A stretch of 64,000 bases of DNA from Chryseobacterium tructae (GTDB taxonomy: Bacteria; Bacteroidota; Bacteroidia; Flavobacteriales; Weeksellaceae): assembly GCF_030409875.1 (NCBI RefSeq), contig NZ_JAUFQR010000001.1, forward strand, positions 1,178,001 to 1,242,000, read 5' to 3'. Shown piece after piece: positions 443 to 56,260 of the stretch (position 1 is the first letter of the stretch; the number at the start of each line of letters is the position of its first letter). The notes under the pieces were generated by a model. The model saw nothing but the letters and a program-made list of their open reading frames with translations. It was not told the origin of the DNA and searched no databases. The position numbers and the translations under genes are program-made.

Positions 443-703
443 ATGAAAAAGATAAGAATTTGTAGTTACTTGCTTTTACTCTTCTCAACCTCATTTATCT
501 CTTGCAGACAAGATGATATTGAAGAAGGGATATCCAGTAAAAGTCTATCAGCAAAAAATTCTAAAATAATATCTTCAAATGTTGTGCCTGTTTCCATAGG
601 AACTCATAGTAATAAGATAGATACTTTACGGTTGGGAGAACCTCAGGGAAATATTGAGCCTGGTAATGATCAGGAGCCCAAAGGAATACCACCCAAAAAA
701 TAA
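443..703 (+). CDS. Small lipoprotein at head of the peptide-export locus
   Basis: An 86-residue protein with a lipoprotein signal: a Met-Lys-Lys start, a hydrophobic core and a Ser-Cys lipobox with the cysteine near residue 21, followed by Arg-Gln-Asp-Asp. I chose the ATG at 443 over an in-frame TTG two codons earlier because it gives a standard signal peptide. The mature part is about 65 residues, polar, low in complexity and Pro/Gly-rich at its end, with no recognised domain. It lies 49 bases before the outer-membrane barrel gene on the same strand, so the two are probably cotranscribed. A link to peptide export is inferred from position only. Confidence 0.6.
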   Translation: MKKIRICSYLLLLFSTSFISCRQDDIEEGISSKSLSAKNSKIISSNVVPVSIGTHSNKIDTLRLGEPQGNIEPGNDQEPKGIPPKK

Positions 704-752
704 TCAGATTGTGTTTTGAAATGATTGCCATGTTGTACATAATGAATATGCT

Positions 753-3100
753 ATGCCAAAGCTCGAGTGCTTATTTTACCTTTTCGGTTTCTTTTTTATA
801 GGAAATATCTTGCAGGCGCAAAGTATAAACGGAAGTATTTTTAATAACGATGGTCAGTCAGTATCCTATCTTGAAATAGTTATTACAAAAGGGAACATTA
901 GAAAAACGACCCTTAGTGATAAGGCAGGAAAGTTTAATTTGAAATTACCTGAAAATGGAAATTATGTATGTGAAATTTTTGATAATGGAGCCAGTATATA
1001 TAAGAAAAGCATTGTAATCAATGGGGATATCTTGGGTAAATTTCATGTATCCGGAAGAGATGAGAAAGCTATTCAGGAAATTGTTCTCACAAAGAAAGTT
1101 ATAGAGCAAGTAGGAGATAAGACTTTTTTCAATGTTGAAAATAGTGTCTTATCAAAAGGAAATAGCGGGCTTGAAGTTTTACAGAAAAGTCCCAAACTGA
1201 ATGTAAATGCTGCCGGAGAGCTCACCCTTAAAAATAAAGAGGTAAGTGTTCTCATTAACGGAAGAAAAATGAATTTATCAGGATCAGAGTTGAATTCATA
1301 TTTACAAAGTTTAAGTTCAGAAGAAATCAAAAGAATAGAAATTCAGGATATGGCATCTGCAGATCAGGATGCTACTGTTACTGGAGGAGTTGTGAATATT
1401 GTTTTAAAGAGAAATCCGAAAGGGCTTCGGGCAATCGCCAAAACGTATTATTTATTTCGAAAAGAAAAATATCAGGTTTATAATGGTGGTTTGAACATCA
1501 ATTATGGAGATGAAAAATGGAATATGTATTCTGATATAAGCTACAATGAAAATAATGATTATGGAACCTCCAACGGAGTTTTTAAATATTGGGATGGACA
1601 ACGGAATATTAATGAAAATCAGTTCAAGCAGTATTATGATAATACAAGTTTTCGTTTAGGATCTGTTTATTATCCTAATGATAAGAATACAATAGGAATA
1701 GAAGGATATTACAGTAAGAGCAATTCTAAAATGAATTCTGAGGGAACGCTGAACATATTCAATGAAGGGGTACAAACTGTGGATAGTAGAAATAATTCAT
1801 TGTCAGCTTCACCATCAGACTTATGGTATTTAACAGTCAATTATACTTTAAAAACCGATGATTTGGGAAGTACCATTAAATTTATTGGGGATGTAGGAAG
1901 AAATATTATGAAACCTTTTAATGATGTTGTTTCTGCCTATCCGGAAAGTCCACAGAAAGACAGCCATTTTTGTATGAAACTCATTTTGTTTCTAAATATT
2001 ATACGGGGCAGCTGGATTGGACACAGAAGTTGAAACAAAATTGGGAGCTCAATGCGGGAATAAAACTGGCTAGTGTAAAGAGAGATAATTTGCTTGATGT
2101 ACATTATATGGACAATATGGAATGGTCTGAGGATCTGAATCAAAAACAGAATTTTGATAACCGTGAAAATATTGTGGCAGGATATGCGATGGGAAGTAAA
2201 ACTTTTGGAAAACATTTTCTGAAAGGAGGGCTTAGAATAGAAAATACAACAATAAAAGGATTTAATAGAGTTAATGGGCAAGAGGTAAAACAAGACTATA
2301 CTAAGGTTTTTCCAAGCTTATTTTATAAGTATGATCTTGGAAATAATAAGAATATTTCATTTGCATTTAAAAGTGGTATTGTGCGACCCTCATTTAGAGA
2401 TTTGAATCCATTTGTAATTAAACAGAATGACTTTTTATATCAGATAGGAAATTCAAATTTATTGCCTCAGTATAATTATAATTTTTATCTGGATTACACT
2501 CAGAATAAACAGACTGTTTCATTGTATGCAGCCCTTACTGAAAATATGATCCACAACGTGTATTATAATGTCAATGAAATAACCTATAACCAACCTTTGA
2601 ATTATGGAAGTGCGCAAGGATATGGATTAGATTATACTTATAACTCAGATGTTTTTAAAGGAGTATACCTTAATCTGACAACAGGTATTTTTTATAATGT
2701 GTTTAAACCCATAGACCTTCAGTCTATTCAAGGAATTGCATTTTATAATAATGTATATGCGCAGTTTAAGATCTCAAAGACTGCTCTTATTGAGCTCTTT
2801 AATAATTATACAACAACCAGTAAATATAGAAATGTAGATATGGCTCACAATTATAAGATGGATATCGCATTTCAAAAATCAATACAGGATGGGCAGATAT
2901 TAATCAAGTTTAAAATATTTGATCTTTTTAATACCCAAAGAGACAAAAGCCTGTCACATTATAGAGACTTTGATTTTAATTTTTATCAAAAGAGGTTAAC
3001 GAGAGGATGGCTGATTTCTTTTCAATACACTTTTGATAATAAGCAAAAAATGAATAATAAAACAGTCAATTCTGATAATGAAAGCAGAAACAGACTATAA
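753..3100 (+). CDS. Outer-membrane TonB-receptor-like beta-barrel protein (reading frame broken once)
   Basis: The first part starts with a signal peptide (cleavage after Gln-Ala near residue 23), then a carboxypeptidase-regulatory-like beta-sandwich (about 24-100), then a plug-like region (about 110-230) with a Val-Leu-Ile-Asn-Gly-Arg motif and Gly-Gly-Val-Val-Asn-Ile-Val. The second part is barrel strands of the outer-membrane beta-barrel family 3 type. The frame breaks in the T5 run at 1967-1971. One extra T joins the halves as His-Phe-Leu-Tyr-Glu-Thr-His and gives about 780 residues, the normal size for this family. I read it as one gene with a deletion error. It is the likely outer-membrane component of the following peptide locus; import versus export is unknown. 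Confidence 0.8.
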
Positions 3101-3175
3101 AAAAAGTGATCACTAAAAAGGAGAAAGCTGAAAATCCTTACAAAGAGTAAGCACTAATTTCAAAATCAAATTAAA

Positions 3176-3361
3176 ATGGAAAAGAAGCAATTAAATCCAG
3201 CTGCATTCCTAGGAATCGAAATCTTATCACCTCTTGAGAAAAAAATGATTAAAGGAGGATATCAAGAACAACAGCAGCAGCAACAGCAGCAACAACAGCA
3301 GCAGCAGTTGTCGCCACAAACTCCTCAAACTCCTCAAACACCAACAACTATTTTGGTGTAA
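3176..3361 (+). CDS. Double-glycine leader peptide with polyglutamine core (candidate RiPP or exported peptide precursor)
   Basis: A 61-residue peptide. Residues 1-28 look like a leader for a C39 peptidase: the segment Leu-Ser-Pro-Leu-Glu-Lys-Lys-Met-Ile-Lys-Gly-Gly has the usual hydrophobic spacing before a double glycine at 27-28. Cleavage there would release a 33-residue core: Tyr-Gln-Glu, 13 consecutive glutamines, Leu-Ser, three Pro-Gln-Thr repeats, and a hydrophobic Ile-Leu-Val end. There is no Cys and only one Ser, so lanthionine or sactionine chemistry is excluded. A C39 exporter and an oxygenase are encoded just downstream, which supports the precursor role. The glutamines are coded by mixed CAG and CAA. 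What the mature peptide does is unknown. Confidence 0.75.
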   Translation: MEKKQLNPAAFLGIEILSPLEKKMIKGGYQEQQQQQQQQQQQQQLSPQTPQTPQTPTTILV

Positions 3362-3372
3362 CTCATTCACTT

Positions 3373-3401
3373 GCCTTGAGGGTAAACCCCTCAAGGCTTT
3401 T
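3373..3401 (+). terminator. Intrinsic terminator or attenuator after the precursor peptide gene
   Basis: A perfect 10-base-pair stem (GCCTTGAGGG paired with CCCTCAAGGC) with a 5-base loop is followed at once by TTTT. It sits between the precursor gene and the secreted-protein/oxygenase/exporter genes. In peptide operons such a site often lets the precursor be made in excess of its maturation genes through partial read-through; that role here is inferred. Confidence 0.75.
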
Positions 3402-3414
3402 AAATCAAAATATT

Positions 3415-3807
3415 ATGAAAAAAATACTTTTAATTTTAAGCTTAATTTTTATGTCTATTACGATATCAGGGCAAAGTACTCCCACTACACCTATCGCTAA
3501 TGCAGGAGTTACTGCAGCAGGAATCACTTATTCTTATAGTGAAAATAATACGTCAATAGCAATTTCCCTTGCTTATAATCACGCATTACAACAAAAAGTT
3601 CTCAATGTGGTTTCAGCGAATTTCCCACAGTTTGATGGAAGTCAGTATGTTAATGATAACAGTATTTATTTTGAATCGATAACCACTCAAGGCTATTCAA
3701 TGAAAATTGAATTAAGACTAAAAAATAATGTATCATCAAGTAATCAGGATTTTCAGAAAGCAAAATCGGATGTGAAGAAGATGTATAATGAAATTTATGG
3801 ATTATGA
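3415..3807 (+). CDS. Small secreted protein of the peptide-export locus, unknown function
   Basis: 130 residues with a clear signal peptide (Met-Lys-Lys, a long Ile/Leu core, cleavage after Ser-Gly-Gln near residue 20). The ATG at 3415 is chosen because the longer upstream reading would run through the terminator hairpin. The mature part starts with a Thr/Pro stretch, continues with strand-like Ser/Thr/Tyr-rich sequence, and ends in a Lys-rich helix. No family is recognised. Its stop overlaps the start of the oxygenase gene by four bases (ATGA), so the two are translationally coupled. It may help the exported peptide outside the inner membrane; that is a guess from context. Confidence 0.65.
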   Translation: MKKILLILSLIFMSITISGQSTPTTPIANAGVTAAGITYSYSENNTSIAISLAYNHALQQKVLNVVSANFPQFDGSQYVNDNSIYFESITTQGYSMKIELRLKNNVSSSNQDFQKAKSDVKKMYNEIYGL

Positions 3808-5072
3808 GTACTCTAACTCAAAATAAATTCACCAAAGAATGGTGGGATGACTTCCTGGATAATACCAATTCTCTCAAAAAAACGAACGTATTTTCTGATT
3901 GTATGCCTCATGATGAGACTGAAGAAATGAGAGCCGGAGTTTTAGATATCATAAGATTGATTATTAAGAATAAAGCTCCTAATTATGGATTCAGATTATT
4001 TGTTGAAGGCAAAACACTCACTGAAAAAGAATTAGAACTGTTCTTTGAAACGTCTATTCCCGAAGAGGGAGAGACGTTTGAAGATTGGTCTGAGAGATGT
4101 TTTGGAGACAAAAAATATGGGATTATCATCAATAGAGGTGAAAAGTTTAATCCATCATTGGTAGAACAGATCGCCAAAAAGATACAACCTTTAGTGAGCA
4201 GCGTAGGTATCCCTAGGCTAGGAGTTACTTTTACCATTTTCATTGGAAATTATGGCTGGACTCCTCTAGGCATACATACTGATGGTATCGGGGAAAATGT
4301 AATGCATTTCCATTTAGGAAAAGGCAATAAGACCATGTACACCTGGGACAGGGAAACTTATGATCAATTGGTAGAGCCGGAAAAAAGATTTAACAATACC
4401 AATATTGAGGAAATTCTTGACCACGCCAATGTATTTGATTTTGCTAATGGCGATATCTATTTTATGCCTTATGGTGAATATCATGTAGGCAAATCTGATG
4501 ATTTATCTATAGGTCTTACTTTGTGGTTCAATAACCATACAAAGACTGCACTTTTCAAAAAAATTATGGATAATTTCCTAACGGAAAATGTGAATGAAAG
4601 CGTTGATATTTTGCCGATGGATCTATCAGATTACGATGAATTGAACAATTTTAATGATATTGAGGATCTATTCATTGGTGAAAACCTTTCCGAATTAAGT
4701 TTTGTCGATCTTTTGAAAGACGCTTATAGAGATTATAAAATTGCTCTATACAGTAATTGTGGCTTTTGGGAATCACCTTTCCCTAAGGCAAAGAAAGTAG
4801 ACCATTCTCAAGAATTTATTGTACAAATTGTTCAGCCATTTAAGATTCTATATTATCAGGATGAGCTTCTGCACCTGTTTATCAGAGGCAAAAAAATTAA
4901 TATGAATAATAATGATTCCTTCCTTGATCTTATAGAAGAGCTTAACAAAGGTTCTAAATTGAACAAAACGGAAATATTTGATTTATTAGATGATACCTGG
5001 GATCATTCAATCAAAGAATATGTTATAGACCTACTTAATGAACATCATATTATAAATGTAGAATATGTTTAA
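3804..5072 (+). CDS. JmjC/cupin-like 2-oxoglutarate Fe(II) oxygenase, likely peptide-modifying
   Basis: 422 residues. The region at about 140-245 is a double-stranded beta-helix of JmjC/cupin type: His-Thr-Asp at 158-160 gives the first two iron ligands, and a histidine near 227 in Glu-Tyr-His-Val-Gly gives the third. Between them lie Lys/Thr/Tyr residues (about 173-181) where 2-oxoglutarate is usually held. The C-terminal 150 residues look helical with a small winged-helix-like end, as in JmjC-type protein and ribosome hydroxylases. It overlaps the secreted-protein gene by four bases and the exporter gene by eight, so it belongs to the peptide locus. The substrate is most simply the Gln/Pro-rich precursor (inference). 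Confidence 0.7.
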   Translation: MSTLTQNKFTKEWWDDFLDNTNSLKKTNVFSDCMPHDETEEMRAGVLDIIRLIIKNKAPNYGFRLFVEGKTLTEKELELFFETSIPEEGETFEDWSERCFGDKKYGIIINRGEKFNPSLVEQIAKKIQPLVSSVGIPRLGVTFTIFIGNYGWTPLGIHTDGIGENVMHFHLGKGNKTMYTWDRETYDQLVEPEKRFNNTNIEEILDHANVFDFANGDIYFMPYGEYHVGKSDDLSIGLTLWFNNHTKTALFKKIMDNFLTENVNESVDILPMDLSDYDELNNFNDIEDLFIGENLSELSFVDLLKDAYRDYKIALYSNCGFWESPFPKAKKVDHSQEFIVQIVQPFKILYYQDELLHLFIRGKKINMNNNDSFLDLIEELNKGSKLNKTEIFDLLDDTWDHSIKEYVIDLLNEHHIINVEYV

Positions 5073-7269
5073 GTTCATTCCCCAACATGACCAAATGGAC
5101 TGCGGTCCAGCTTGTCTTGCCATGATTTGTGCTTATTATGGTAAGGATTTTGGGCTGCAGTATCTTCGGGATAAAAGTTTTATTACCCGTGAAGGAGTAT
5201 CATTGTTGGGAATAAGCGAAGCCGCAGAAAAAATAAACTTAAAACACATGGCAGGTAAATTGAAACCAAAGGATTTCAATAGTGATCTTTTGCCTTGTGT
5301 TCTCCATTGGAACCAAAATCATTTTGTGGTTCTTTATAAAATTTCAAAAAGTATTTATTCTAATAAACTCGTTTATAAGATTGCTGATCCAGGGCATGGA
5401 ATTGTTTCCTTGTCAGAGGATAAATTTAAAAAATCATGGTTGTCTGATGGAGAAAAAGGGGTTGCCCTTTTTTTAGAACCTACGGATGAGTTCTATCAAC
5501 AAGTTCCCCCCGAAGAGGAAGAAATTTCAGCAAAATATATGTTGAATTTTTTTAAACCGTATAAAAAACAAATATTCCAATTGTTTTTTTTATTGCTTGC
5601 CGGAACACTTACTACTTTGGTATTTCCTATTCTTACACAGAAGCTTATTGATGAGGGAGTTGCCCAAAAAAATCTGTCAATTATTACTTATATCCTGCTG
5701 GCACAGCTTGCTTTTTTTATGGGGAATATCATTTTTGGGATTTTCCGTAACTGGATCATGTTGATTTTAGGGACTAAAATAAATATTCAGATTATTTCAG
5801 ACTTTTTAAAAAAGCTTTTAATACTTCCTATTAAGTTTTTTGATACTAAGCTAATGGGAGATTTTAACCAGCGTATCCAGGATCATGAGAGAATTGAGAA
5901 TTTTCTTACCTCTCAAAGTCTTTTAACCTTGTTCTCTATGATTACATTTTCTGTGTTTTTTGGAGTTCTCTGGTATTATGACTTCCGGATCTTAGCGGTA
6001 TATGTAATTTTTACCATCATTTCTGTTGTCTGGTCTTTATATTGGCTAAACAAAAGAAAAATATTGGATTATTTCCGTTTTCAGCAGAAAAGCGAGAATC
6101 AAGAATCAATCTATGAGATCATCAACGGAGTATCCGAAATAAAACTTAATCAGTTTGAAGACTACAAAAGACAAAAATGGGAGGGAATCCAGCAAAAACT
6201 ATTTAAAATTAATATTCGTATTTTAAAACTTGATCAACTTCAGCTTTCAGGTTTTGACTTCATTAACCAACTGAAGAATATTGTAGTAACTTTTCTTGCC
6301 GCATCATTTGTTGTCAAAGGAAATATGACCTTGGGAGCTTTGCTAAGTGTTTCATATATCATTGGGCAAATGAATTCTCCCATAGGCCAATTGATTTCAT
6401 TTTTCCGATCTTTACAGGATGCAAAATTAAGTTTAGCCCGTTTGAACGAAGTGCAAAACCACCCTGAAGAAGAGACTGATAGCCATTTGCCATTATTCAG
6501 TCCTCAGTATACAGAACAGAATGGAATACAGAAAGGTATTTATTTTAAAAATGTATCGTTTCAGTATGAAGGCCCTCAGTCCCCATTTGTACTAAAAGAT
6601 ATCAATCTTTTTATTCCGGAAGGAAAAATAACGGCTATTGTAGGCGCTAGTGGCAGTGGGAAAACCACTTTGATGAAAATGTTATTAAAGTTTTATGAAC
6701 CGGTACAAGGCGATATTAGCTTTAATCATCTTAATATAAAAGATATTTCACCCAAAGATTTGCGTAAGAATTGTGGAGTTGTTATGCAGGATGGTTTTAT
6801 ATTTTCAGATTCAATAGAAAGAAACATTGCTACTAATGAGGAGAATATAGATGAGCAAAAACTTGAAAACGCATTACGAATTGCCAATATTAAGAGTTTT
6901 ATAGAAGAACTTCCTTTAGGAGTAAACACAAAAATAGGATCTGCTGGAAACGGTATTTCAGGAGGTCAAAAACAAAGAATACTTATTGCCAGAGCGGTGT
7001 ATAAAAACCCACACTTCATTTTATTCGATGAAGCTACCTCTGCATTGGATGCGGAAAATGAAAGTATTATTCATCACAATCTTCTATCCTTTTTTAAAGG
7101 AAAAACAGTTGTTATTGTCGCCCATCGTTTAAGTACCGTTAAAAATGCTGATCAGATTATTGTGCTTAAGCATGGGAAGATCGTTGAACAAGGAACCCAT
7201 CAACAACTCGTTCATAAAAAAGCAGATTACTACAATCTGGTAAAGAACCAGCTTGAATTGGGAGACTAA
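5065..7269 (+). CDS. Peptidase-containing ABC transporter (C39 peptidase, exporter and ATPase)
   Basis: 734 residues forming a full PCAT. Residues 1-135 are a C39 cysteine peptidase with Gln7, Cys13 (in Asp-Cys-Gly-Pro-Ala), His86 and Asp108, so the catalytic set is complete. About 150-440 is a six-helix ABC exporter domain. About 490-734 is the ATPase with Walker A Gly-Ala-Ser-Gly-Ser-Gly-Lys-Thr, signature Ile-Ser-Gly-Gly-Gln and Walker B Leu-Phe-Asp-Glu. Such proteins cut the leader after a double glycine and export the core across the inner membrane. No HlyD-type adaptor or TolC is encoded beside it. Cysteine-peptide 37488-37736 is a possible second substrate. Confidence 0.92.
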   Translation: MFKFIPQHDQMDCGPACLAMICAYYGKDFGLQYLRDKSFITREGVSLLGISEAAEKINLKHMAGKLKPKDFNSDLLPCVLHWNQNHFVVLYKISKSIYSNKLVYKIADPGHGIVSLSEDKFKKSWLSDGEKGVALFLEPTDEFYQQVPPEEEEISAKYMLNFFKPYKKQIFQLFFLLLAGTLTTLVFPILTQKLIDEGVAQKNLSIITYILLAQLAFFMGNIIFGIFRNWIMLILGTKINIQIISDFLKKLLILPIKFFDTKLMGDFNQRIQDHERIENFLTSQSLLTLFSMITFSVFFGVLWYYDFRILAVYVIFTIISVVWSLYWLNKRKILDYFRFQQKSENQESIYEIINGVSEIKLNQFEDYKRQKWEGIQQKLFKINIRILKLDQLQLSGFDFINQLKNIVVTFLAASFVVKGNMTLGALLSVSYIIGQMNSPIGQLISFFRSLQDAKLSLARLNEVQNHPEEETDSHLPLFSPQYTEQNGIQKGIYFKNVSFQYEGPQSPFVLKDINLFIPEGKITAIVGASGSGKTTLMKMLLKFYEPVQGDISFNHLNIKDISPKDLRKNCGVVMQDGFIFSDSIERNIATNEENIDEQKLENALRIANIKSFIEELPLGVNTKIGSAGNGISGGQKQRILIARAVYKNPHFILFDEATSALDAENESIIHHNLLSFFKGKTVVIVAHRLSTVKNADQIIVLKHGKIVEQGTHQQLVHKKADYYNLVKNQLELGD

Positions 7270-7305
7270 ACCAAGTTGATATTGATCAGAAGAAATATAA
7301 GAATA

Positions 7306-7799
7306 TTATATTCGATGCTGATGTGGCCATGGTTACCTTTTCCTGTTTCACACAACAATTTTAAGCTTCTCAGAAACTGTCCCCAAGTATAATTGCATTC
7401 TGCAAACATAGGAGAATAAGTCTCCCAGCCTTTATGATGAAAAATCAATAAGGTACCACTATCGTATACCAACTGCTCTATTTGCCCTTCTAATTCGGGA
7501 TGCATTTTGCGTAAAGTTTCTTTATCTCCGGAGACAAGATGAAATGAAATATCTGTCCCAATCCATTCATGAGCACCTGTGATACAGTGCCATTGGACTT
7601 CCTCAAAAGGGGTAAGCTTTACAATTCTCATTTCTTTAAAATAATCAGGGCCAAAAGAAAATCTGGCAATACTGCCAGGCTCTGCATTTGCTTTTGTATG
7701 GGGAGTCCACCATGCAGACAACCCAGACTGACTGCTGATGGCACTGTATACTTTTTCCTTTGATGAGCCAATTAGTAAAGAATGATAAATATTAGGCAT
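7306..7799 (-). CDS. SRPBCC (AHSA1/START-like) domain protein (C-terminus frameshifted)
   Basis: About 164 residues. It opens with a short strand and the Ser-Ser-Lys-Glu-Lys-Val-Tyr helix, then Trp-Trp-Thr-Pro, as in activator-of-Hsp90-type SRPBCC proteins; the fold binds small hydrophobic ligands. The read frame runs on to 7266 and would overlap the exporter stop, but adding one base at the AA/TT pair at 7333-7334 restores the usual family ending Gly-Lys-Gly-x-Pro-Trp-Pro and stops at 7306. I treat the extension as an artefact. It is convergent with the peptide locus and probably unrelated to it. The ligand is unknown. Confidence 0.75.
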
Positions 7800-9386: not shown

Positions 9387-9872
9387 ATGAAGCTGACAAA
9401 ATACTTTTCATTATGTTTTCTAATTGGATTACAGTTTGTATGCTATGGACAAACACAATCAGGAAACCAGTCGCTGCAAATAAACGCTGAAGCATTTACC
9501 AAAAAAATGATCCATCTGATTACACAGAAAGATTATGCTGCATTAAATAAACTAACGACTCCAAAAGTCTACTGTTATCTGTGTTTTGAAGAGACTCCGG
9601 GAAAGAATGCATTCATTAAGAAAGATGTTTTTTACACACAACATGCTGGTGAAATTTTTAACAAAGATCTGATTGAAAGACTGGATCGTAATGAAATAAA
9701 GTTCTCCTATGACGGATCTGATCCCGGATTCAAAGACAGAGATTATATCGTATTGTATACTACTTATCGTCCGAATGAATTTGGAGATGGTCATGAAGGG
9801 GCTCAATTTGTATTTTGGTTAAAAGAGGAAAAAGGGAACTTTAAACTTTCAGGGATTGAAACAATACCTTAA
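9387..9872 (+). CDS. Secreted protein, unknown function (possible NTF2-like fold)
   Basis: 161 residues with a signal peptide (cleavage around Cys-Tyr-Gly-Gln, residue 22). The mature part begins with an amphipathic helix (Ala-Glu-Ala-Phe-Thr-Lys-Lys-Met-Ile-His-Leu-Ile) and continues Leu-Asn-Lys-Leu-Thr-Thr-Pro-Lys-Val-Tyr, a layout that recalls NTF2/SnoaL-like proteins, but the match is weak. A Cys-Tyr-Leu-Cys pair could form a disulfide in the periplasm. It sits 15 bases before the next gene on the same strand. Confidence 0.55.
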   Translation: MKLTKYFSLCFLIGLQFVCYGQTQSGNQSLQINAEAFTKKMIHLITQKDYAALNKLTTPKVYCYLCFEETPGKNAFIKKDVFYTQHAGEIFNKDLIERLDRNEIKFSYDGSDPGFKDRDYIVLYTTYRPNEFGDGHEGAQFVFWLKEEKGNFKLSGIETIP

Positions 9873-9887
9873 AGATCAAAAAACATC

Positions 9888-10478
9888 ATGAAAATAAGTT
9901 CAATTCTTTTATTTTTTGTCATAATCGTTGGATTCCGAAGCATTAAAGCAAATGATCATCCTGTCAGTACAGGTATTGACAATACCTATTTTAAACATTC
10001 CTTTCATGGTACAGATACGTTGCGGGTTTCTCAAAATGATACTGCTGTATTCAGAAAAGAGGAATTTATGATGAAGCATCCTGAAAGTAATCCTAAACCA
10101 TCAGTACGCTATGAACTAATCAGTCCCAAAGATGGAACATATTATTTTATTTATAATGATAAGAAGCAATTGGCAGAAGAAGGAAAATACACCGCTCAGT
10201 ACAAATATGAGGGAATTACTTATGATAAGGGAGGTTTCTATAATTCAAAAACTTATTTTTATAAGACGAATGGCCATTTGAAAACAATCCATTATCAGGA
10301 AGATGGAAGAAACCTGAAGACTGAATTTTTTGATCAAGATAAGCAGTTAACCCAAATAAGATACTTCAATAAAAGATCATCAGACACCGATAAAGTTGAA
10401 TTTTATAAAAAAGGGAAATTAAAACAAACCCGTATATATACAGCTTTTAATACCTATTATACGATAAAGGAAAAGTAA
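9888..10478 (+). CDS. Secreted protein with YwqK/MORN-like repeats
   Basis: 196 residues with a signal peptide of about 21 residues ending before Asn-Asp-His-Pro. From about residue 85 the sequence is a series of short strands with the pattern Tyr-x-x-Gly-x-Leu-x-x-x-x-x-Tyr and Lys-x-Glu-Phe-Phe-Asp, as in the repeat proteins called YwqK-family antitoxin components or MORN-like repeats in Bacteroidota. The name is historical and does not prove an antitoxin role. It ends the 8028-10478 same-strand run and is convergent with the next gene, with an 8-base gap. Confidence 0.55.
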   Translation: MKISSILLFFVIIVGFRSIKANDHPVSTGIDNTYFKHSFHGTDTLRVSQNDTAVFRKEEFMMKHPESNPKPSVRYELISPKDGTYYFIYNDKKQLAEEGKYTAQYKYEGITYDKGGFYNSKTYFYKTNGHLKTIHYQEDGRNLKTEFFDQDKQLTQIRYFNKRSSDTDKVEFYKKGKLKQTRIYTAFNTYYTIKEK

Positions 10479-10485
10479 TCATCTC

Positions 10486-10830
10486 TTATAGATTGCGTGC
10501 CGTATTCAACATCCAATTACAAAAGCCATCACCACCACTCCATAAACAGCTGAGATATAATGCCGGAATAATAAAACATAAAAGAAAAGGAAGATCTATA
10601 AGTGCCGTTTTATACTCTTTCTTCCTTAATCTGATGATGAAATCTGTCATAAAGCCTATAAATAAAGAGAATAGAATAAAAGTTAACAAAAGCGCTATTC
10701 CTAATCCAACATCCGTAGGATGCTCTTTTTTACGATTGTTCTGAAATGCTATTTCAGCAAAAATATATAGGCATATTAAAGGAATGGCAGTAACCAGCAG
10801 ACGTTTCAAAAAAGGCTTAAGAATTTTCAT
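10486..10830 (-). CDS. Small inner-membrane protein, unknown function
   Basis: 114 residues with about three hydrophobic helices (near 10-27, 42-68 and 78-96) joined by short Lys/Arg-rich loops, ending in a Trp/Cys/Asn-containing tail. No family is recognised. It follows the gene starting at 11889 on the same strand with a 24-base gap, so the two may be cotranscribed. Confidence 0.5.
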   Translation of the reverse strand: MKILKPFLKRLLVTAIPLICLYIFAEIAFQNNRKKEHPTDVGLGIALLLTFILFSLFIGFMTDFIIRLRKKEYKTALIDLPFLLCFIIPALYLSCLWSGGDGFCNWMLNTARNL

Positions 10831-10854
10831 AGAAATAGAGTTGCTAAAGTGAAT

Positions 10855-11889
10855 TTATCTTTTTGAAGTTTTAGGTCTTATAAGATAGTAGAGCTGATTT
10901 TCTTCGTCAATCAGTAACAAGTAATCGCCGTTTTTCGGCTGGTATACAAAATAAGAAAAAGGATCTCTGACCTGATTGCCGGAAGAATCTATGAAGACAT
11001 CCTGCTTGTAATGCACTATTTTCTTGGGCATTTTAATAGAAAAATAAGAAGTTCCTGTCCATCCTTTGTGATTGGATCCATTTCCGGTTCCCCAGCTAAG
11101 ATTTTTGAGGCTCCAGAAAGTACGATCACTCCATTTTTCTTTTTGAACATGTTCTCTTTTGATAATTCCGGAAGGCTTATCTACCTCATAACCGGAATTT
11201 CCATAGTTAATAGCCTTTTTGTTGGGAGTGTTTTGGGGATAGCCATGCCAGTCTTTTTCCGCATAAAAGTAGTTCCAGACATTATCTTTAAATACAGTCA
11301 ATTTATATTTATATTCATTCCCTGTTGTATCAGAATGAATGATATCATCATACATATATTCTCTTTCTGCAGTAATAGCTTTCGTCTCTGCTACTGAAAA
11401 TATTTTAGCATCGTTTATATTTTTATAGGGATAATGGGTTGTATCCCCATTTTTTATCCAGTTAGTATAAGTATTCTGATCTACATCCAGAATATAATCA
11501 TTGAAGGTTTGGTAATTATGAATTCCTTTTTCAGTATTGTATTTGTATTGGAGGCTATCTGTTATTTGTCCTTTCAGATTGATTTTATACCATGTATAGA
11601 TATTATCGGCACCTTCTTTTTTAGAATCATGATCTCTTTTGGTAATGATGACAATAGTACTGTCGTTTTCCTGGATAACAGGCTCATGGATGCCTCGGGA
11701 AAGCTTAATGATTTCATAGTCATTATCTTTCAGGCTATCTAATGTAGTATATGATTGGTATTGTTCCGGAAGTTTTTCTGATCTCAGTTTATACCGTTGA
11801 TAATACATCTCAGCATCAGGTAAGATGATAATGGCAACAATAGCAATGCCCCAGAATATAAAAGATTTCTTTGTGAGATTAAATTTCAT
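10855..11889 (-). CDS. Membrane-anchored hypothetical protein
   Basis: 344 residues. One hydrophobic segment near the N-terminus (about 10-25, no lipobox) anchors it; the remainder is a large polar domain outside the membrane, rich in Tyr, Trp, Asp and Asn with alternating strand-like patterns that hint at a propeller or beta-rich fold. I do not recognise a family. The ATG at 11889-11887 gives Met-Lys-Phe-Asn-Leu-Thr-Lys-Lys-Ser before the hydrophobic segment, a sensible membrane start. Confidence 0.6.
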   Translation of the reverse strand: MKFNLTKKSFIFWGIAIVAIIILPDAEMYYQRYKLRSEKLPEQYQSYTTLDSLKDNDYEIIKLSRGIHEPVIQENDSTIVIITKRDHDSKKEGADNIYTWYKINLKGQITDSLQYKYNTEKGIHNYQTFNDYILDVDQNTYTNWIKNGDTTHYPYKNINDAKIFSVAETKAITAEREYMYDDIIHSDTTGNEYKYKLTVFKDNVWNYFYAEKDWHGYPQNTPNKKAINYGNSGYEVDKPSGIIKREHVQKEKWSDRTFWSLKNLSWGTGNGSNHKGWTGTSYFSIKMPKKIVHYKQDVFIDSSGNQVRDPFSYFVYQPKNGDYLLLIDEENQLYYLIRPKTSKR

Positions 11890-23597: not shown

Positions 23598-25511
23598 TTA
23601 TTTGTAACTTCTTACCGTTGGCTGTATTTCTTCGAAGGTTAATGGTTCCTTAACCAGTTCTGGTTCGCCATTTTCACCTGTCCATGCCCATGCTGAGATA
23701 AACTGGTATTCTGCGTCATTTCTCATGGCTTCACCATCCGGAGTTTGGTATTCTTCACGGAAGTGAGCACCACAGGACTCATTACGGGTTAAAGCATCAT
23801 AACACATCAGTTCTCCAATTTCAAAATAATCAGCAACACGGCCAGCCTTTTCCAGCTCAGCATTCATCTTGTCCCCTTGTCCGGAAACCCTTACGTCTTT
23901 GTAGAACTCCTGTTTTAGCTTTCTGATTTCCTGAATAGCGTATTTCAATCCTTCTTCATTTCTTGCAAGTCCGCAATAGTCATATAGTAATTTTCCTAAT
24001 GTTTTATGGAAGTAATCAACGGTTTTGGTTCCTTTGATATTCATTAAATCCTGAATTTGATTTTTAACGGCCTTTTCGGCCTTTTCAAACTCTGGAGTGT
24101 CCGGAGAAATTTTTCCGGTGTGAATTTCATCCGCCAGATAATTGGCAATGGTATAAGGAGCAATAAAATAGCCGTCTACAGAAGCCTGTAGAAGAGAATT
24201 GGCTCCTAATCTGTTGGCTCCATGGTCTGCAAAATTAGCTTCTCCCAATGCAAATAGTCCCGGAATAGTAGTCATTAATTCATAATCTACCCAAAGACCA
24301 CCCATTGAAAGTGGGCAGAAGGCGATATCATCATCGGTTCTTTATAAGCATCATATCCTGTAATTTTAAGATACATGTCAAATAGATTTCCGTATTTCTC
24401 TTTGATTTTATCTTTTCCCTGTTCTTTAATGGCTTTTGAAAAATCAAGATATACTGCATTTTTTAAAGGCCCGATTCCAAAGCCTGCATCAATTCTTTCT
24501 TTGGCAGCCCGAGAAGAAATATCTCTTGGGGCTAAGTTCCCGAATGCCGGATATCTTCTTTCCAGATAATAATCTCTTTCATTTTCAGGAATGTCATTCG
24601 GGGGTCTGTTTTCATCCTGTTTTGCAGGAACCCAGATTCTACCGTCGTTACGCAATGATTCAGACATCAGCGTTAATTTAGACTGATAATCTCCGGATTG
24701 CGGAAGGGAAGTAGGGTGTACCTGGATCCAGCTTGGGGAAGCCATTAAAGCTCCTTTTTTATGTGCTCTCCAGATAGCTGAACCATTACATCCCATAGCC
24801 AACGTAGACAGGTAATAGATCTTTCCATACCCTCCGGTTGCCAGTATTACAGCATGAGCTGCATGTCTTTCAATCTCACCGGTATCTAAATTCCTTACGA
24901 TAATTCCCCTTGCTTTGCCATCAATCGTGACAAGATCAAGCATTTCATGTCTCGAAAATAATTGTACAGAACCTTTTCCTACTTGTCTCATCAAAGCCTG
25001 ATATGCTCCTAAAAGTAATTGTTGTCCGGTTTGGCCTCTGGCATAGAAAGTTCGGCTCACCTGAACCCCTCCGAAAGAACGGTTATTAAGATAACCGCCA
25101 TACTCCCGTCCAAAAGGAACTCCCTGTGCTACGGCCTGATCGATGAGGTTTAAAGAACATTCTGCCATTCGGTACACATTGGCTTCACGGGCTCTAAAGT
25201 CTCCACCTTTCAAGGTATCAACGAACATTCTGTATACACTGTCACCATCGTTTATAATTTTTAGCAGCATTTACTCCACCTTGTGCAGCGACAGAATGTG
25301 CTCTTCTCGGGCTGTCCTGAAAGCAGAATGCTTTTACATTATATCCCATTTCTCCTAAAGAAGCAGCGATAGAACTTCCGGCAAGACCTGTCCCTACAAC
25401 AATCACATCAAGCTTTTTACGGTTGGCCGGGTTAACAAGCTTGGCTTTCTTTTTATAATAAGCCCATTTCTGTTCCAATGGACCTTGAGGTATTTTTGAA
25501 TCTAAAATCAT
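23598..25511 (-). CDS. sdhA: Succinate dehydrogenase/fumarate reductase flavoprotein subunit (frame broken twice)
   Basis: Three frames together give about 638 residues, normal for the Bacteroidota enzyme. The N-terminus has the FAD motif Gly-Thr-Gly-Leu-Ala-Gly and the Ser-Val-Ala-Ala-Gln-Gly-Gly segment beside the flavin-linked histidine. The middle has Arg-Ser-Phe-Gly-Gly and [10 protein letters not shown]. The C-terminus holds [17 protein letters not shown]. One base is missing at the TTT at 25251-25253 (restores Tyr-Lys-Asn-Asp-Gly-Asp) and one at the AAA at 24308-24310 (restores His-Phe-Ser-Met-Gly-Gly). An enzyme this central is unlikely to be truly broken twice, so I infer deletion errors. 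Complex II, inner membrane. Confidence 0.93.
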
Positions 25512-27646: not shown

Positions 27647-28815
27647 TTAAAATCTACTTTGTACTTGCACTATGAATAGATTGTTGTTGTATTGATTGGT
27701 ATTTTCTACCTGATATTTGTAGCGGTCAAACTGTACTCCTAGCTGAATTCTTGCTCCATAGTTTTTAAGGAACTCAAGGCCTACCATAGGCGTAATAGTC
27801 TGTCTTGGATTAGAAGCCATTCTGAAGTTCGTGTCCAGATATTCATAACGGCAAGACAATTCAAAAGCGCTTAAGTTTTTGTGATTGATCTCATATCTCA
27901 GATTCGGAAGAAAATAAACCCCACGAACCAGATACTGATCTGGATTTTCTGATCGTAACTCGGGAGCAATGGAGTTGTAAAGAATATGATTGGTAGCTTG
28001 TTTAGCTTCCAATTGCATATCAAGACTCCATTTCGGGTCAAATTTGATCAGAGAGCTGAGATCAAGTCCCAAAGCATATACTTTTTTACTGAAACTTCTC
28101 CTATCCCTCCATTCAGACCAACATTGAAGTTGTATTTTTTAGACAATCCGAAAACCAAACGGGTAGAATACTGTTTTCCGTTGTCATTATCATTGATTTG
28201 ATTTTTCCCGTTTCCATTCACCACAGAAACTGCATACTGGAAAGGTATTTCTCCAAGCTGAAGCTGTCCGGTTGCAGACATCCCGATCTGGAAACTTGTC
28301 CAGCCCAGTTTTCCGAATTCCGAATACTGATTAGACCAATCCAGGGATTTGATAATGTCGATAGGATAGGTTTCTTCAATACCGAACCAGGGTCTGAACT
28401 GTCCTACGGTCAATGCCAACTTGGGACTGAAAGTATATTTCAGGTAAGCATTTTCAAGAACTCTGCCTTTAGGATCATTTTTAAAATCTGCAAGGTTAGC
28501 CAAAGCAACGACTTCCGTACGTTTACTGATCTGCGCCCTAACCTGAATTCTCATGTATTTCAACATAAAGTTATTGTCAGTTCCGGATCCGTCAGTATGA
28601 TGAAGGCCATTTACATCAACATCCTTGCTCATTCCTACCAGATAGCGTGCCTGAAAAAGCCCTTTGATCTGAAGCTGCGGATATTTCACATTATCTTCTT
28701 CTTGTTGTGGTTGTGGTGTGGTCTGTAGAGAATCCTGGATCTGTGCATTTGCTGAAAACCAGCCTATGAGTATGCATAGGATCAGGCTTCTCTTTTTTAA
28801 TGAAAAAAAGGCCAT
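27647..28815 (-). CDS. Outer-membrane porin, phosphate-selective O/P-like (frame broken once)
   Basis: About 390 residues in two frames. The ATG at 28815 gives a signal peptide ending Ala-Asn-Ala-Gln; a longer upstream reading to 28902 is less likely. The rest is amphipathic strands, with Gly-Leu-Phe-Gln-Ala-Arg-Tyr at the start of the barrel, the Tyr-Pro-Ile-Asp-Ile-Ile segment, and a C-terminal Phe (Gln-Val-Gln-Ser-Arg-Phe), the normal end of a porin. The break lies in the T6 at 28082-28087; one more base gives Val-Lys-Lys-Val-Tyr-Ala-Leu-Gly-Leu. It is first in the dicarboxylate operon and likely lets acids through the outer membrane (inference). Confidence 0.83.
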
Positions 28816-29085
28816 ATCTATTTGTTTAATTTTTGCTTTTTTTGAAATTTTATTAAGCATAAAAGTTCCTGTCTCTATCTTTGAAAAATTGAGGTAATGC
28901 ACTGTGCGTGCCCATATAATGATAAAAACTTTTTTTGCTTAAACCTTCCGTTAAATCTCCGATTTATACATTTCCAGAGGAAGGAAATGATCTTATATCT
29001 CATCCTGAATATCATCATTCAAGATGTACAAATCCTAAGTGTTTTCAAAGTATTCTTTCACCAGGAAACATTTGAGATTAAATCT

Positions 29086-42896: not shown

Positions 42897-44027
42897 TTAT
42901 GAAGCCCTTATGATCTGCTGGATTTCTTTTTGAAATTTCTTATTTTGTTTTCTTATTTTTAAAATGAAATAGAACAAAAGAGAAATAAGAATCCCGGCAA
43001 TAGCAAAAGATATGATCTTCATATAATAATACTGGGACTTCAGTTTTCTACTTTTTATGGAAGTTTCCTTATTGTGATTGTCAATAACCTGGTTGATAGA
43101 AGTTAATTCATTTTGTTTTCTTTTGAAACTCATTTCCATGTATTTCTTATTGTACAATTGATATAAATTCTGTTGACCTATGGCGAGATAGTTATCTGCC
43201 ATTTCTTTGTAAATTCCTTCATTTAAAATGATGTCTCCTGTATTTTTACTAAGATGCTCGGCTTCTGTTAAAAGATCCAATGCCGTTTGGTTTTCGTGTT
43301 TTTGTTTGTGTAGTTCAGACATTCCTTTTAAAGCAAATGCTTCCAGACTCTTGGCATGATTTCTTTGAGCATAATTCCGGGATTGCAAAAATGCCTGTTC
43401 TGCTTTGTTGATCTCATTTAGATTAAGATAACAATATCCAATATTGTAATACACTACACTCATATTGGAATAAGTTGTTTTCTTAGAGGGTACTTTTTCA
43501 AAATTTTCTATCGAAATTAAAAATTTTTCAAGGGCAATTTCGGAATTAGACTGACCTTTATAGATCATTCCCCTGATGGCATTGCTTGTTGCGGTTTCTA
43601 CATACCTTGCAGGAGTATTTTCAGGGATTTGGGCTAAATACTGATCTGCTTCATTCAGTGTTTCAAGGCTTTTGCTGAACAATTCCATTTGTTGATATTG
43701 TATAGCAACAGAAATAAGAACGCTTACCTGACTTTTGGGATCATTGATTTTTTGTGAAAGTTCTTTTGCTTTTAAAATGTATTTCAAAGACTCATCAAAA
43801 TTTCTTTTCGCAACATTGGCAGTAGAAAGAAGCATATAAAGCTCAATCGAAGTTTTAATATCATTACTTTTCTTTAATAATTGTTCTCCAATCTGAATCG
43901 CTTTATCAGGATTATCATAGATTTCCTGTTTGGCTTTTTTCATCAGGGCAGTATCCGAAGTTTTTTGACCAGTTATAAAAATAATGGATAAAAGAATACA
44001 GGAGAATATTTTCAATTTTAATTTCAT
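42897..44027 (-). CDS. TPR-membrane protein lacking the AraC DNA-binding domain
   Basis: 376 residues: signal-like start, about seven TPR motifs across 30-300 (Ala-x3-Gly-x7-Ala pattern), one membrane helix (about 338-355), then 20 basic residues and a stop. The gene ends at a terminator with no HTH sequence after it, in any frame. In the neighbour (44024-45573) the same layout continues into an AraC domain. So this one may be a sensor without output, or a partner for it. The start overlaps the neighbour's stop by four bases, so the two are translated together. Confidence 0.7.
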   Translation of the reverse strand: MKLKLKIFSCILLSIIFITGQKTSDTALMKKAKQEIYDNPDKAIQIGEQLLKKSNDIKTSIELYMLLSTANVAKRNFDESLKYILKAKELSQKINDPKSQVSVLISVAIQYQQMELFSKSLETLNEADQYLAQIPENTPARYVETATSNAIRGMIYKGQSNSEIALEKFLISIENFEKVPSKKTTYSNMSVVYYNIGYCYLNLNEINKAEQAFLQSRNYAQRNHAKSLEAFALKGMSELHKQKHENQTALDLLTEAEHLSKNTGDIILNEGIYKEMADNYLAIGQQNLYQLYNKKYMEMSFKRKQNELTSINQVIDNHNKETSIKSRKLKSQYYYMKIISFAIAGILISLLFYFILKIRKQNKKFQKEIQQIIRAS

Positions 44028-45573
44028 GACATTTTACTTTTACTGATTTCCTGAATATAAATATTAGGTGACATTCCGGTTACGGATTTAAAAACGGTTG
44101 TAAATGCACTATGGGAAGAAAAACCAGAATATTCAGCCAGATAGCTCACTTTATAATTGAGAAACGTAGAGTCGCTTTTTAAAAGCTGAGCCATATGATT
44201 GATCCTTAATTTGTTGATATAACCATTAAAGTTTTTTTCCTTGTTATTATTAATCACTTCCGAAAGGTATTTGGGGTTAACTTCCAGCTGAGAGGAGAGC
44301 ATAGAAAGTGACATACTTTTATTCAGGTACCGATCAGATTGTTCAAATTGTTCAAGTTTTTGAAGAATTTCTTCTTCTTTTTCTTTAGAGATTTTATGAG
44401 AGCTTTTCTCTCCATCAGATATTTTTTTTGCTAGTGCAGAAGCGGAAGGTACTGCCTGCTGTTGTCGGCTATTTTGTTTTTCAAAAAAGGCAAATTGCTT
44501 TTTTAAGTCTTTATTTTTGTTGTTAATAATGAGGAAATAGATCAATGAACCAATAACGATCAGAGCTAAGATGAGAGTGGAGATCCAGAAAGATTGTAAG
44601 TAGGTTTGTTTTTGAAATTCAATATTTTTATTTTGATTGGTTTCTACCAATTTTACAATATAGCGTATCCCTTCTCTGGTGCTGGAATTTGTTTTGATTT
44701 TTAAATCATTATAATATTTGTTGTATTGATGGTACTTGCTATCATCATGAAGAGCAAAATAGGTTCTGGATAATGATTCGTAGAATTTAATTTTTAAATT
44801 ATTGAAAGGAAGGTTTTCAATCAAAGCCAATCCCAATTCTAGTTTCTGAACGGAGGTTTTATAGTCTTGTATCAAAAAATAATACCGAGATAGGTTTTCA
44901 TAAGCCAATCCGAGTAAAAATGGCTGATTTTGTTGTTTTTCAAGATCAGAAATAATGCTTTCTATGAGTTTTCTATACTCAGCCAGCTTATTTTGCTTCA
45001 TTAAATAAGAAGAACGAAAAATTCTGTTTTCTGTTTTTATAATTTTATTCTCTTCATTATAAGGATCAATGTATTGGTCACTTTTGTCAAGGTTTTTTAA
45101 TGCATTCGGGTAATCTCTGTTGATTCCTAGGTTCAGAGCTTGCAATTGATATAGTTTCGCTGTTGTTATCCTTAATTTAGGATCATTGCTTTCAGAAGTT
45201 TCTGATCCGATAAGAGATGAACAATTATCTTTTTTGACTGATTGTATAGTCCCAGGTTCTGATATTGGTCTGCCAGATTGTAATCCCCAAAGATCTGCAT
45301 GAAGTAAGATAAATTTTGATCCTGATCTTCTTTTTGGGAAAAACTATTGACAGACTGCATATAATCACCCTTCATAGCGAAAGCCTGTGAGATTATATTC
45401 TGTAGGATGATTTTATGTTCTATGTCCTGATCACTTACGAGAATTCCCTGAGTATAGCTGATGCAATCATCAGAATTTTGATACAGTTTCTGGAATGCCT
45501 TATCAGCGATAATATTAAAATCCGGGCCAGATTGTCCTTTGATAATAATAGAATATACGACAAATGTCAGCAA
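44024..45573 (-). CDS. TPR-transmembrane-AraC regulator (frame broken once)
   Basis: About 515 residues: TPR repeats, a membrane helix (about 325-345), a Lys/Gln-rich coiled segment, and a C-terminal AraC domain with Met-Leu-Ser-Ser-Gln-Leu-Glu-Val-Asn-Pro-Lys-Tyr-Leu-Ser-Glu-Val-Ile and Tyr-Leu-Ala-Glu-Tyr-Ser-Gly-Phe-Ser-Ser-His-Ser-Ala-Phe. This is a one-protein signal transducer with a periplasmic TPR sensor and cytoplasmic DNA-binding part. The frame breaks at the T6 at 45230-45235; one more base yields Ser-Lys-Lys-Asp-Asn-Cys-Ser-Ser-Leu-Ile-Gly and continues into the long frame. The start at 45573 is a TTG and uncertain; a few upstream codons could belong. Confidence 0.8.
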
Positions 45574-55121: not shown

Positions 55122-56260
55122 TTAAGAAAAAGCTTTTTCCAGATCTGCAATAAGATCTTCGGCGTCTTCAATTCCAACGCTTAAACGAACAAGGTCATCT
55201 GTGATTCCCAATTCAGCACGTTTTTCAGCCGGAATAGAAGCGTGAGTCATTAAAGCAGGATGGTTTGCCAGAGATTCTACTCCTCCTAAAGATTCTGCTA
55301 ATGTAAATACTCTTACTTTTTCAAGGAACTTGATCGCATCCTCTTTCTTTCCGGATTTGAAAGTGAAGGATACCATTCCTCCAGATTCTTTCATTTGAGA
55401 TTTTGCAAGCTCGTATTGAGGGTGAGATTCTAGTCCCGGATAAATTACTTTATCTACTGCAGGATGAGTTTCAAGATATTTTGCTACAGCAAGACCATTA
55501 TCAGAATGTCTTTGCATTCTTAATGCTAATGTTTTGATTCCTCTTAATACAAGATAAGAATCGTGAGGGCCTAAAATACCACCACTTGCAAATTGAATAA
55601 AGTGAAGTTTTTCACCCAATTCTGCATCTTTAGCAATAAGGGCACCAGCAATGACGTCAGAATGTCCTCCTAAATATTTGGTAGCAGAGTGCATTACGAT
55701 ATCAGCTCCCAGATCAATAGGTCTTTGGATGTATGGTGTTGCGAAAGTATTGTCTACAGCAACTAAGATATCTTTCCTTTAGCAATGTCTACAACAGCTT
55801 TGATGTCTACCAGTTTCATCAATGGGTTTGTTGGAGTTTCTACCCAGATTAGCTTTGTTTTATCTGTAATAACATCAGCAATTTTAGAAACATCATCAAA
55901 ATTCACAAACGTGAACTTCAGCTGATATTTTTCGAAAAGTCTGGTGAACATTCTGTAAGTACCACCGTAAAGATCATCTACAGCAATGACTTCATCACCA
56001 GGGTTTAATAGTTTCAAAACACAATCTATAGCAGCAAGTCCAGAACCGAAAGCTAAGCCTCTCGCTCCGTTTTCAATGCTTGCTAAAGAATCTTCTAACG
56101 CCTGTCTTGTAGGGTTAGCTGCTCTTGAATATTCATATCCGGAGTGTACTCCAGGGCTTTTCTGTGCAAACGTAGAGGTTAAAAATACAGGAACATTTAC
56201 AGATCCCGTTGCAGACTCATGATGCTGCCCTCCGTGAATTACTTTAGTATTAAAATTCAT
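55122..56260 (-). CDS. Cystathionine gamma-synthase/lyase-type PLP enzyme (frame broken once)
   Basis: About 380 residues in two frames. The PLP lysine lies in His-Ser-Ala-Thr-Lys-Tyr-Leu-Gly-Gly-His-Ser-Asp; Tyr-Glu-Tyr-Ser-Arg and Ala-Asn-Pro-Thr-Arg fit the cofactor and substrate site. The frame breaks at the TTT at 55773-55775; one base more gives Gly-Lys-Asp-Ile-Leu-Val-Ala-Val-Asp-Asn-Thr-Phe-Ala and links the halves. The family includes gamma-synthase, gamma-lyase and beta-lyase forms, and the exact reaction in sulfur amino acid metabolism cannot be told from sequence. Its own promoter and terminator suggest a single-gene unit. Confidence 0.9.

Follow-up and report, generated by a model that had tools for sequence, protein, structure and literature searches.

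A 64,000-nucleotide stretch of the Chryseobacterium tructae genome (contig NZ_JAUFQR010000001.1, positions 1,178,001 to 1,242,000; hereafter the window), part of a 5.63-Mb genome in three contigs, carries at 443-7269 a locus that is best read as a biosynthetic locus of the type that makes ribosomally synthesized and post-translationally modified peptides (RiPPs). The whole gene set described for it in an earlier note is present on the + strand and the locus is real: it comprises genes for a lipoprotein, an outer-membrane barrel, a precursor peptide, a small secreted protein, a JmjC-type oxygenase and a C39 peptidase exporter. In the pathway that we consider probable, a JmjC hydroxylase guided by its own RiPP recognition element (RRE)-like domain would act on a polyglutamine core, after which the C39 exporter would cleave and export it. 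The system is predicted to be a new class within RiPPs. Its central features, in window coordinates, are:

3176..3361, + strand: precursor peptide, 61 amino acids (open reading frame; family profile)
3176..3259, + strand: leader MEKKQLNPAAFLGIEILSPLEKKMIKGG (family-wide FL-x14-GG spacing)
3260..3358, + strand: core YQE-Q13-LSPQTPQTPQTPTTILV (Q13 at 3269-3307)
3804..5072, + strand: JmjC-type Fe(II)/2-oxoglutarate oxygenase, 422 amino acids (residues and predicted fold)
4800..5069, + strand: RRE-like domain of the oxygenase, residues 333-422 (predicted fold)
5065..7269, + strand: C39 peptidase/ATP-binding cassette (ABC) exporter, 734 amino acids (Pfam C39, ABC_membrane, ABC_tran)

The precursor has the double-glycine leader and polyglutamine core that the earlier note had claimed for it, with Gly-Gly at residues 27-28 and a run of 13 Gln at residues 32-44 that precedes the tail. 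The closest relative at the locus is that of Chryseobacterium sp. c4a (L017 in our numbering of loci), in which the oxygenase is 97% identical; the matching genome, G221, is of the same genus. When the two precursor genes were compared, 6 synonymous and 0 nonsynonymous differences were found in 61 codons, five of the six lying in the core. The run is encoded by a mix of CAA and CAG codons, which indicates that the protein sequence, not a DNA repeat, has been kept. Judged by its sequence, the precursor gene is real.

A precursor profile built from 35 peptides adjoining oxygenases matched 96 database proteins (E ≤ 0.001), giving a pooled set of 131 sequences in which some peptides occur twice. 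Aligning the leaders, as had been proposed, gave the consensus FLxxKxLSPLExxxLxGG for the precursors of the oxygenase loci. The spacing FL-x14-GG was found in all 131, even though the search pattern demanded only F, then L, I or M, and GG, and permitted 9-16 residues between them. Counted back from the core, Ser or Thr occupies position -11 in 131 sequences, Pro position -10 in 113, Leu position -9 in 121 and Glu position -8 in 126. In the Chromobacterium peptides of L028, L030 and L034, VL or IL replaces FL. When the 35 precursors were compared with NCBIfam, scattered single matches at most were obtained.

Behind this conserved leader ending in Gly-Gly the cores diverge and are of low complexity. 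Compared with random segments of equal length from neighbouring proteins, 94 of the 115 unique cores fall in the lowest 5% of sequence entropy and 68 in the lowest 1%. They include polyglutamine, KEKEKE, KKEKKK, KVKVKIK, VTVTVT, VVRVVRVVQQVQ, IRIRIR and HHHDHD, and by enzyme clade they form polyQ, Lys/Glu, Lys/Val, Val/Thr, Val/Arg/Gln and His/Asp classes. Cys is found in just 4 of the 115, so the design is not lanthipeptide-like. Outside the window, polyQ cores occur in L017, L018, L019, L021, L022 and L039, and in L020, a metagenome-assembled genome (MAG), with the core partly masked. At 9014-9526 of L020 the polyQ tract runs into a stretch of N, and repeat cores may likewise have been lost or hidden in some other assemblies.

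The oxygenase carries the His-x-Asp...His iron site that had been read from its sequence, as H158-x-D160 and H227. Of 62 family members, 61 retain H158, 62 D160, 61 H227 and 61 K176. No Pfam or NCBIfam model passed its threshold for the window oxygenase, JmjC_2 (PF08007) scoring 12.3 bits against a gathering cut-off of 22, and among 37 relatives four matched JmjC_2 (best E 0.0012) and one Cupin_8 at E ≤ 0.01. Searches of the sequence against solved structures returned chance-level matches only. The JmjC label given earlier agrees with the residues and the predicted fold but falls below the Pfam cut-off. The AlphaFold2 model (predicted local distance difference test score, pLDDT, 92.9) has as its closest folds the ribosomal oxygenases (ROX) YcfD, NO66 and MINA53, with which it shares a double-stranded beta-helix bearing the HxD...H site and a C-terminal winged-helix-like domain.

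This C-terminal domain (residues 333-422; pLDDT 91.4 when modelled alone) is predicted to be a winged helix of the bbb-aaa type. It resembles, in the model, those of McbB, TruD, ThcOx, MccB, NisB, PbtF-RRE and the nonribosomal peptide synthetase oxidase BmdC, and also the C-terminal domain of NO66/MINA53, so that by its predicted fold it resembles a leader-recognition domain of the RRE kind. Among 29 members, no PqqD match was obtained from Pfam at E ≤ 1, nor anything else useful.

Searching the database with the oxygenase gave 210 relatives at E ≤ 0.001. The earlier note had proposed a search for homologous loci, and a scan of contigs with an alignment of 36 database relatives and the window oxygenase yielded 45 named loci from Flavobacteriia, Chitinophaga, Niastella, Pedobacter, Chromobacterium, Paucibacter and Massilia. 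A peptide of the leader family lies upstream of the first oxygenase in 36 of them, at a distance of 5-503 bases (middle values 73 and 76; the start in L041 is off by a few bases and the distance in L020 ignores the masked stretch). BLAST with the window exporter identified a C39 exporter in the fetched stretch of 40 of the 45 loci, on the other strand in about eight; those of the Chromobacterium and Paucibacter loci are just ~28-30% identical to the window's. The nine loci without a precursor comprise two at a contig end (L025, L055), the four with the most divergent oxygenases (L046, L050, L057, L058), one that is broken (L061) and two others (L032, L036).

The pairing also holds at the level of genomes. 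Among 246 genomes of the family, 15 have the oxygenase (E ≤ 0.001), 15 the precursor (E ≤ 0.01) and 14 both (Fisher p 9.6e-21, a value that ignores relatedness), and of 296 genomes from across the phylum, two have the oxygenase and the same two the precursor (E ≤ 1e-4 and 1e-20), one being the window's own. Because the profile was made from oxygenase-adjacent peptides, these counts measure the occurrence elsewhere of such a peptide, not the existence of other peptides. In the genome with an oxygenase and no precursor (G147), the match starts at contig base 71 and query residue 83, as expected for a gene cut by the contig start. Another genome (G014; L076) gave a weak precursor-like match and no oxygenase; the match has an internal stop, and neither oxygenase nor exporter was seen in the 3.1 kb fetched around it, so that we rejected it as a genuine precursor and regard it as a relic or a chance match.

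The type of core follows the enzyme. A quick maximum-likelihood tree was made from 62 oxygenases no shorter than 320 amino acids (X placeholders removed). With core labels given by eye and the 13 unlabelled rows counted as a class of their own, core classes change 16 times on it, compared with a mean of 40.1 for shuffled labels and with 0 of 200 shuffles as low; the labelled rows alone require 9 changes. For each of the Q, K, Val/Thr, Val/Arg/Gln and Lys/Val classes, clustering exceeds that of all 500 shuffles; the His class is less tightly grouped, with 7 changes and 5 of 500 shuffles as low. The window enzyme falls in a group of eight, all with polyQ cores (Shimodaira-Hasegawa-like approximate likelihood ratio test 96), from Chryseobacterium, Riemerella, Altibacter, Kordia, Aquimarina and two MAGs. 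Within Chryseobacterium, polyQ, Val/Thr and Val/Arg/Gln types occur, each with a different enzyme group, and the two-enzyme His/Asp type is common to Chitinophaga and Chromobacterium; the type therefore follows the enzyme more than the species. Two or three oxygenase copies adjoin in some clusters, two being present in the His/Asp loci L023 and L024 and in the Lys/Glu loci L027, L031 and L060. One oxygenase per repeated residue type would suit these two-enzyme loci, but we rejected the idea, since L059 (with KEKEKE in its core) and those of the Lys/Val and Val/Arg/Gln types each carry a single enzyme.

Pairwise distances were compared across 31 loci with precursor, oxygenase and exporter, using the first oxygenase of each and excluding the window, its twin L017, L028 and any locus in which one of the three was missing. 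Core distance correlates with catalytic-domain distance at r 0.45, a value that becomes 0.413 on controlling for the exporter (0 of 2000 permutations as high in either case). Its correlation with exporter distance (r 0.225; 9 of 2000) becomes -0.115 once the catalytic domain is controlled. Leader distance correlates with RRE-domain distance at 0.558 when the exporter is controlled and at 0.393 when the catalytic domain is (0 of 2000 each).

Some results weigh against the proposed pathway. The correlation of core with catalytic domain is just 0.102 (97 of 2000) once the RRE-like domain is controlled, and that of core with RRE-like domain persists at 0.267 (0 of 2000) when the control is the catalytic domain. 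What the data show is joint change of peptide and enzyme, not tuning of the active site to the residue. The exporter, too, is generic, with a match at E ≤ 1e-100 in 146 of the 246 family genomes. Its domains are clear, with Pfam matches to Peptidase_C39 (E 6.6e-32), the ABC membrane domain and the ABC ATPase, which is the make-up of a peptidase-containing ABC transporter. The complete C39 triad reported for it is present as C13, H86 and D108, in the motifs DCGPAC, NHFVV and ADPG, which we take to be the catalytic residues. Among Chryseobacterium relatives, exporters 65-85% identical to the window's belong to other double-glycine-leader/C39 loci. Of 30 exporter loci fetched, 15 were inspected by eye: several had neighbours resembling radical S-adenosylmethionine (rSAM), LanB or LanC proteins, and an oxygenase of this family was seen in none of the 15. 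Independent occurrence of exporter and oxygenase without the precursor had been named as grounds for abandoning the proposal. The exporters are indeed widespread without the oxygenase, but the oxygenase keeps its precursor in 14 of 15 genomes; the exporter is thus a module in common with other peptide loci, and it is the oxygenase together with its precursor that is diagnostic of the system.

From the gene set, the peptide family, the conserved residues, the predicted folds and the oxygenase-precursor pairing, we infer the following course of events and, with it, any biological function. The leader would bind the C-terminal RRE-like domain of the ROX-like oxygenase, whose catalytic domain, using Fe(II), O2 and 2-oxoglutarate, would hydroxylate repeated side chains of the low-complexity core. 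In the window, the target would most likely be Gln, probably at the beta carbon, where ROX enzymes hydroxylate, with the reaction perhaps repeated many times over the run. The C39 exporter would then cut after Gly-Gly and export the core, which the lipoprotein and barrel may handle at the outer membrane for release, re-uptake or self-protection. The order suggested earlier, in which the oxygenase hydroxylates a Gln/Pro/Thr-rich core before C39 export, gains from the pairing, the RRE-like domain and the core type that follows the enzyme; however, it is the repeat, not Pro or Thr, that varies with the enzyme.

A broader proposal, which we hold only tentatively and think somewhat less likely than its opposite, is that one RRE-guided, ROX-like scaffold has diversified across Bacteroidota and Betaproteobacteria. 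It would hydroxylate one residue after another in cores that are homopolymers or dipeptide repeats (Gln, Lys/Glu, Lys/Val, Val/Thr, Val/Arg/Gln and His/Asp), with the repeat itself as the product, a polyhydroxylated repeat peptide. As speculation, the His/Asp products, with two oxygenases each, might bind metal.

Oxidation of the core by another chemistry, namely desaturation, oxidative cross-linking, epimerisation or backbone cleavage, is the strongest alternative, and we regard it as unlikely. Active sites of this type support several oxidations. An alpha-ketoglutarate-dependent HEXXH enzyme cleaves the peptide backbone in RiPPs, according to the accessible part of PMC12636437. Hydroxylation is nonetheless favoured, by analogy, because the nearest folds, YcfD, NO66 and MINA53, are named protein hydroxylases and the JmjC protein BipG hydroxylates ornithine in the precursor of its own RiPP cluster (PMC12707348, accessible text).

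That the target of the oxygenase lies elsewhere, in a protein of the ribosome or the envelope, and that its gene only shares a transcript with a peptide exporter seems very improbable to us. The titles of the structure entries do give ribosomal proteins as the targets of its nearest structural relatives. An RRE-like domain on the oxygenase, a precursor in 14 of the 15 family genomes that have it and in the same two phylum genomes, and adjoining copies that a housekeeping target leaves unexplained all speak against such a target, and the genomic context argues for the precursor, not a ribosomal protein, as the substrate. YcfD, NO66 and MINA53 are solitary enzymes acting on ribosomal proteins, whereas the window oxygenase sits in a peptide cluster and is ~10-16% identical to them in structural alignments.

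We give marginally less weight still to an unmodified, bacteriocin-like peptide for which the oxygenase-like protein serves mainly as a leader-binding chaperone, keeping the repeats soluble until export. Such a role would suit the RRE-like domain and cores that, being beta-prone or polyglutamine repeats, could aggregate; the retention of the metal-site residues and K176 in 61-62 of 62 members would be unexpected for a pure chaperone. Slippage can give rise to polyQ runs, but a functionless slippage product is scarcely credible given the mixed codons, the absence of nonsynonymous changes against c4a and a leader family that recurs in 96 database proteins.

With hydroxylation of the core retained as the preferred reading, the locus can be set beside known systems. 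BipG and its relatives BpmG and PbsQ, which occur in clusters with other enzymes, are likewise JmjC or cupin-like proteins within RiPP clusters, of the biphenomycin type (PMC12707348, PMC12257519; accessible portions of both). As described there, those clusters add a multinuclear non-heme iron-dependent oxidative enzyme (MNIO) with its partner protein, an arginase, an rSAM enzyme and a major facilitator superfamily transporter, and BipG needs ornithine made from arginine. The window locus is set apart, going by these descriptions, by a JmjC protein that is its sole recognised modifying enzyme, an RRE-like domain of its own, a repetitive core and a C39 exporter; no MNIO, arginase or rSAM enzyme was found among the eight window open reading frames (443-7799) scanned with Pfam.

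According to the available passage of PMC12710340, fish and algae have JmjC (PF08007) proteins to which an RRE-fold domain is fused, a joining that the window oxygenase shares by its predicted fold; the closest bacterial JmjC homologues (~30% identity) are placed there in RiPP-like contexts. That passage concerns fish and algal proteins and gives no precursor family, core type or class, and the window oxygenase lies below the PF08007 cut-off. In the literature searched, PF08007 and RiPP are mentioned together in one paper. No account of the precursor family, its repetitive cores or the C39-JmjC pairing appeared among the literature matches listed, which consist mostly of titles and abstract openings, and in PMC10352776 the searched terms do not occur. 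The earlier statement that no described RiPP class has this combination agrees with these searches, with the qualification that BipG (PMC12707348) and the JmjC-RRE fusions (PMC12710340) had already been reported, as far as the accessible parts of those papers go.

If correct, the proposal would give RiPPs a further class, in which a JmjC oxygenase that reads the leader through a domain of its own is the main enzyme. It would also provide natural matched sets of enzyme and core (Q, K/E, K/V, V/T, H/D) for testing residue choice by JmjC enzymes. That a bacterium should secrete polyglutamine, possibly hydroxylated, would be a surprise, and the system would make a simple test bed for the ways in which cells keep repeat peptides soluble. 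The family has mostly been missed by automatic annotation (Pfam, NCBIfam).

The remaining genes of the locus are:

443..703, + strand: small putative lipoprotein, 86 amino acids (open reading frame; called by reading signal and Cys by eye)
753..3100, + strand: TonB-receptor-like outer-membrane barrel, PF14905 (Pfam; split open reading frames 753-2033 and 1970-3100)
3415..3807, + strand: small secreted protein, 130 amino acids, DUF6705-like (Pfam below cut-off; signal read by eye)

The small secreted protein and oxygenase genes overlap by 4 bases (3804-3807), and the oxygenase and exporter genes by 8 (5065-5072), just as had been noted. Of the six same-strand genes counted earlier, all are present on the + strand, but the barrel is two overlapping open reading frames, not one. 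The lipoprotein has no Pfam match and evolves fast (78% identity and a nonsynonymous divergence, dN, of 0.125 with its c4a homologue). The small secreted protein scores 18.1 bits against PF20448 (cut-off 24.4), and its homology cluster is found in 8 of the 45 loci, seven of them of the polyQ clade. That of the barrel is represented in 27 of the 45, a single-linkage cluster that may include other receptors. In addition to PF14905, the barrel has a CarboxypepD_reg-like N-terminus below cut-off and weak matches to TonB-dependent receptor models, because of which a role in re-uptake or self-protection is possible; any roles for these three proteins are guesses.

In c4a the barrel gene is intact as one 782-amino-acid open reading frame, relative to which the window has one base fewer near 1966. 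By eye, adjacent same-strand open reading frames resembling pieces of one gene also occur at 23598-25270, 27647-28902, 42897-45573 and 55122-56260 of the window, among them a succinate-dehydrogenase-like flavoprotein (23598-25270) and a trans-sulfuration pyridoxal phosphate enzyme. These suggest indels in the assembly and make such an indel a fair alternative to a real lesion in the barrel, whose frameshift is perhaps an assembly error.

Among the related loci, that of Riemerella columbina (L018, 7300-9580) has its precursor just downstream of a gene that, by eye, encodes a conjugation coupling protein, a hint that a conjugative element may carry the locus. In Massilia sp. H-1 (L061, 9674-12453) the oxygenase region consists of several overlapping frames, and at least one copy looks broken. 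Chromobacterium vaccinii (L028) has two precursor-oxygenase sets (4479-7376 and 9669-11263); the His/Asp-rich set includes two oxygenases, the Gln-rich set a single one. In loci of the Lys, Lys/Val and Val/Arg/Gln types (L042, L044, L045, L047, L048, L049 and L056; in part L027, L031, L052 and L053), a ThiF-family protein, a FeeM/autoinducer-synthase-like protein (below cut-off) and a LuxR-type regulator often lie upstream, as labelled from one scanned representative per homology cluster; they are possibly a second modification or a link to signalling.

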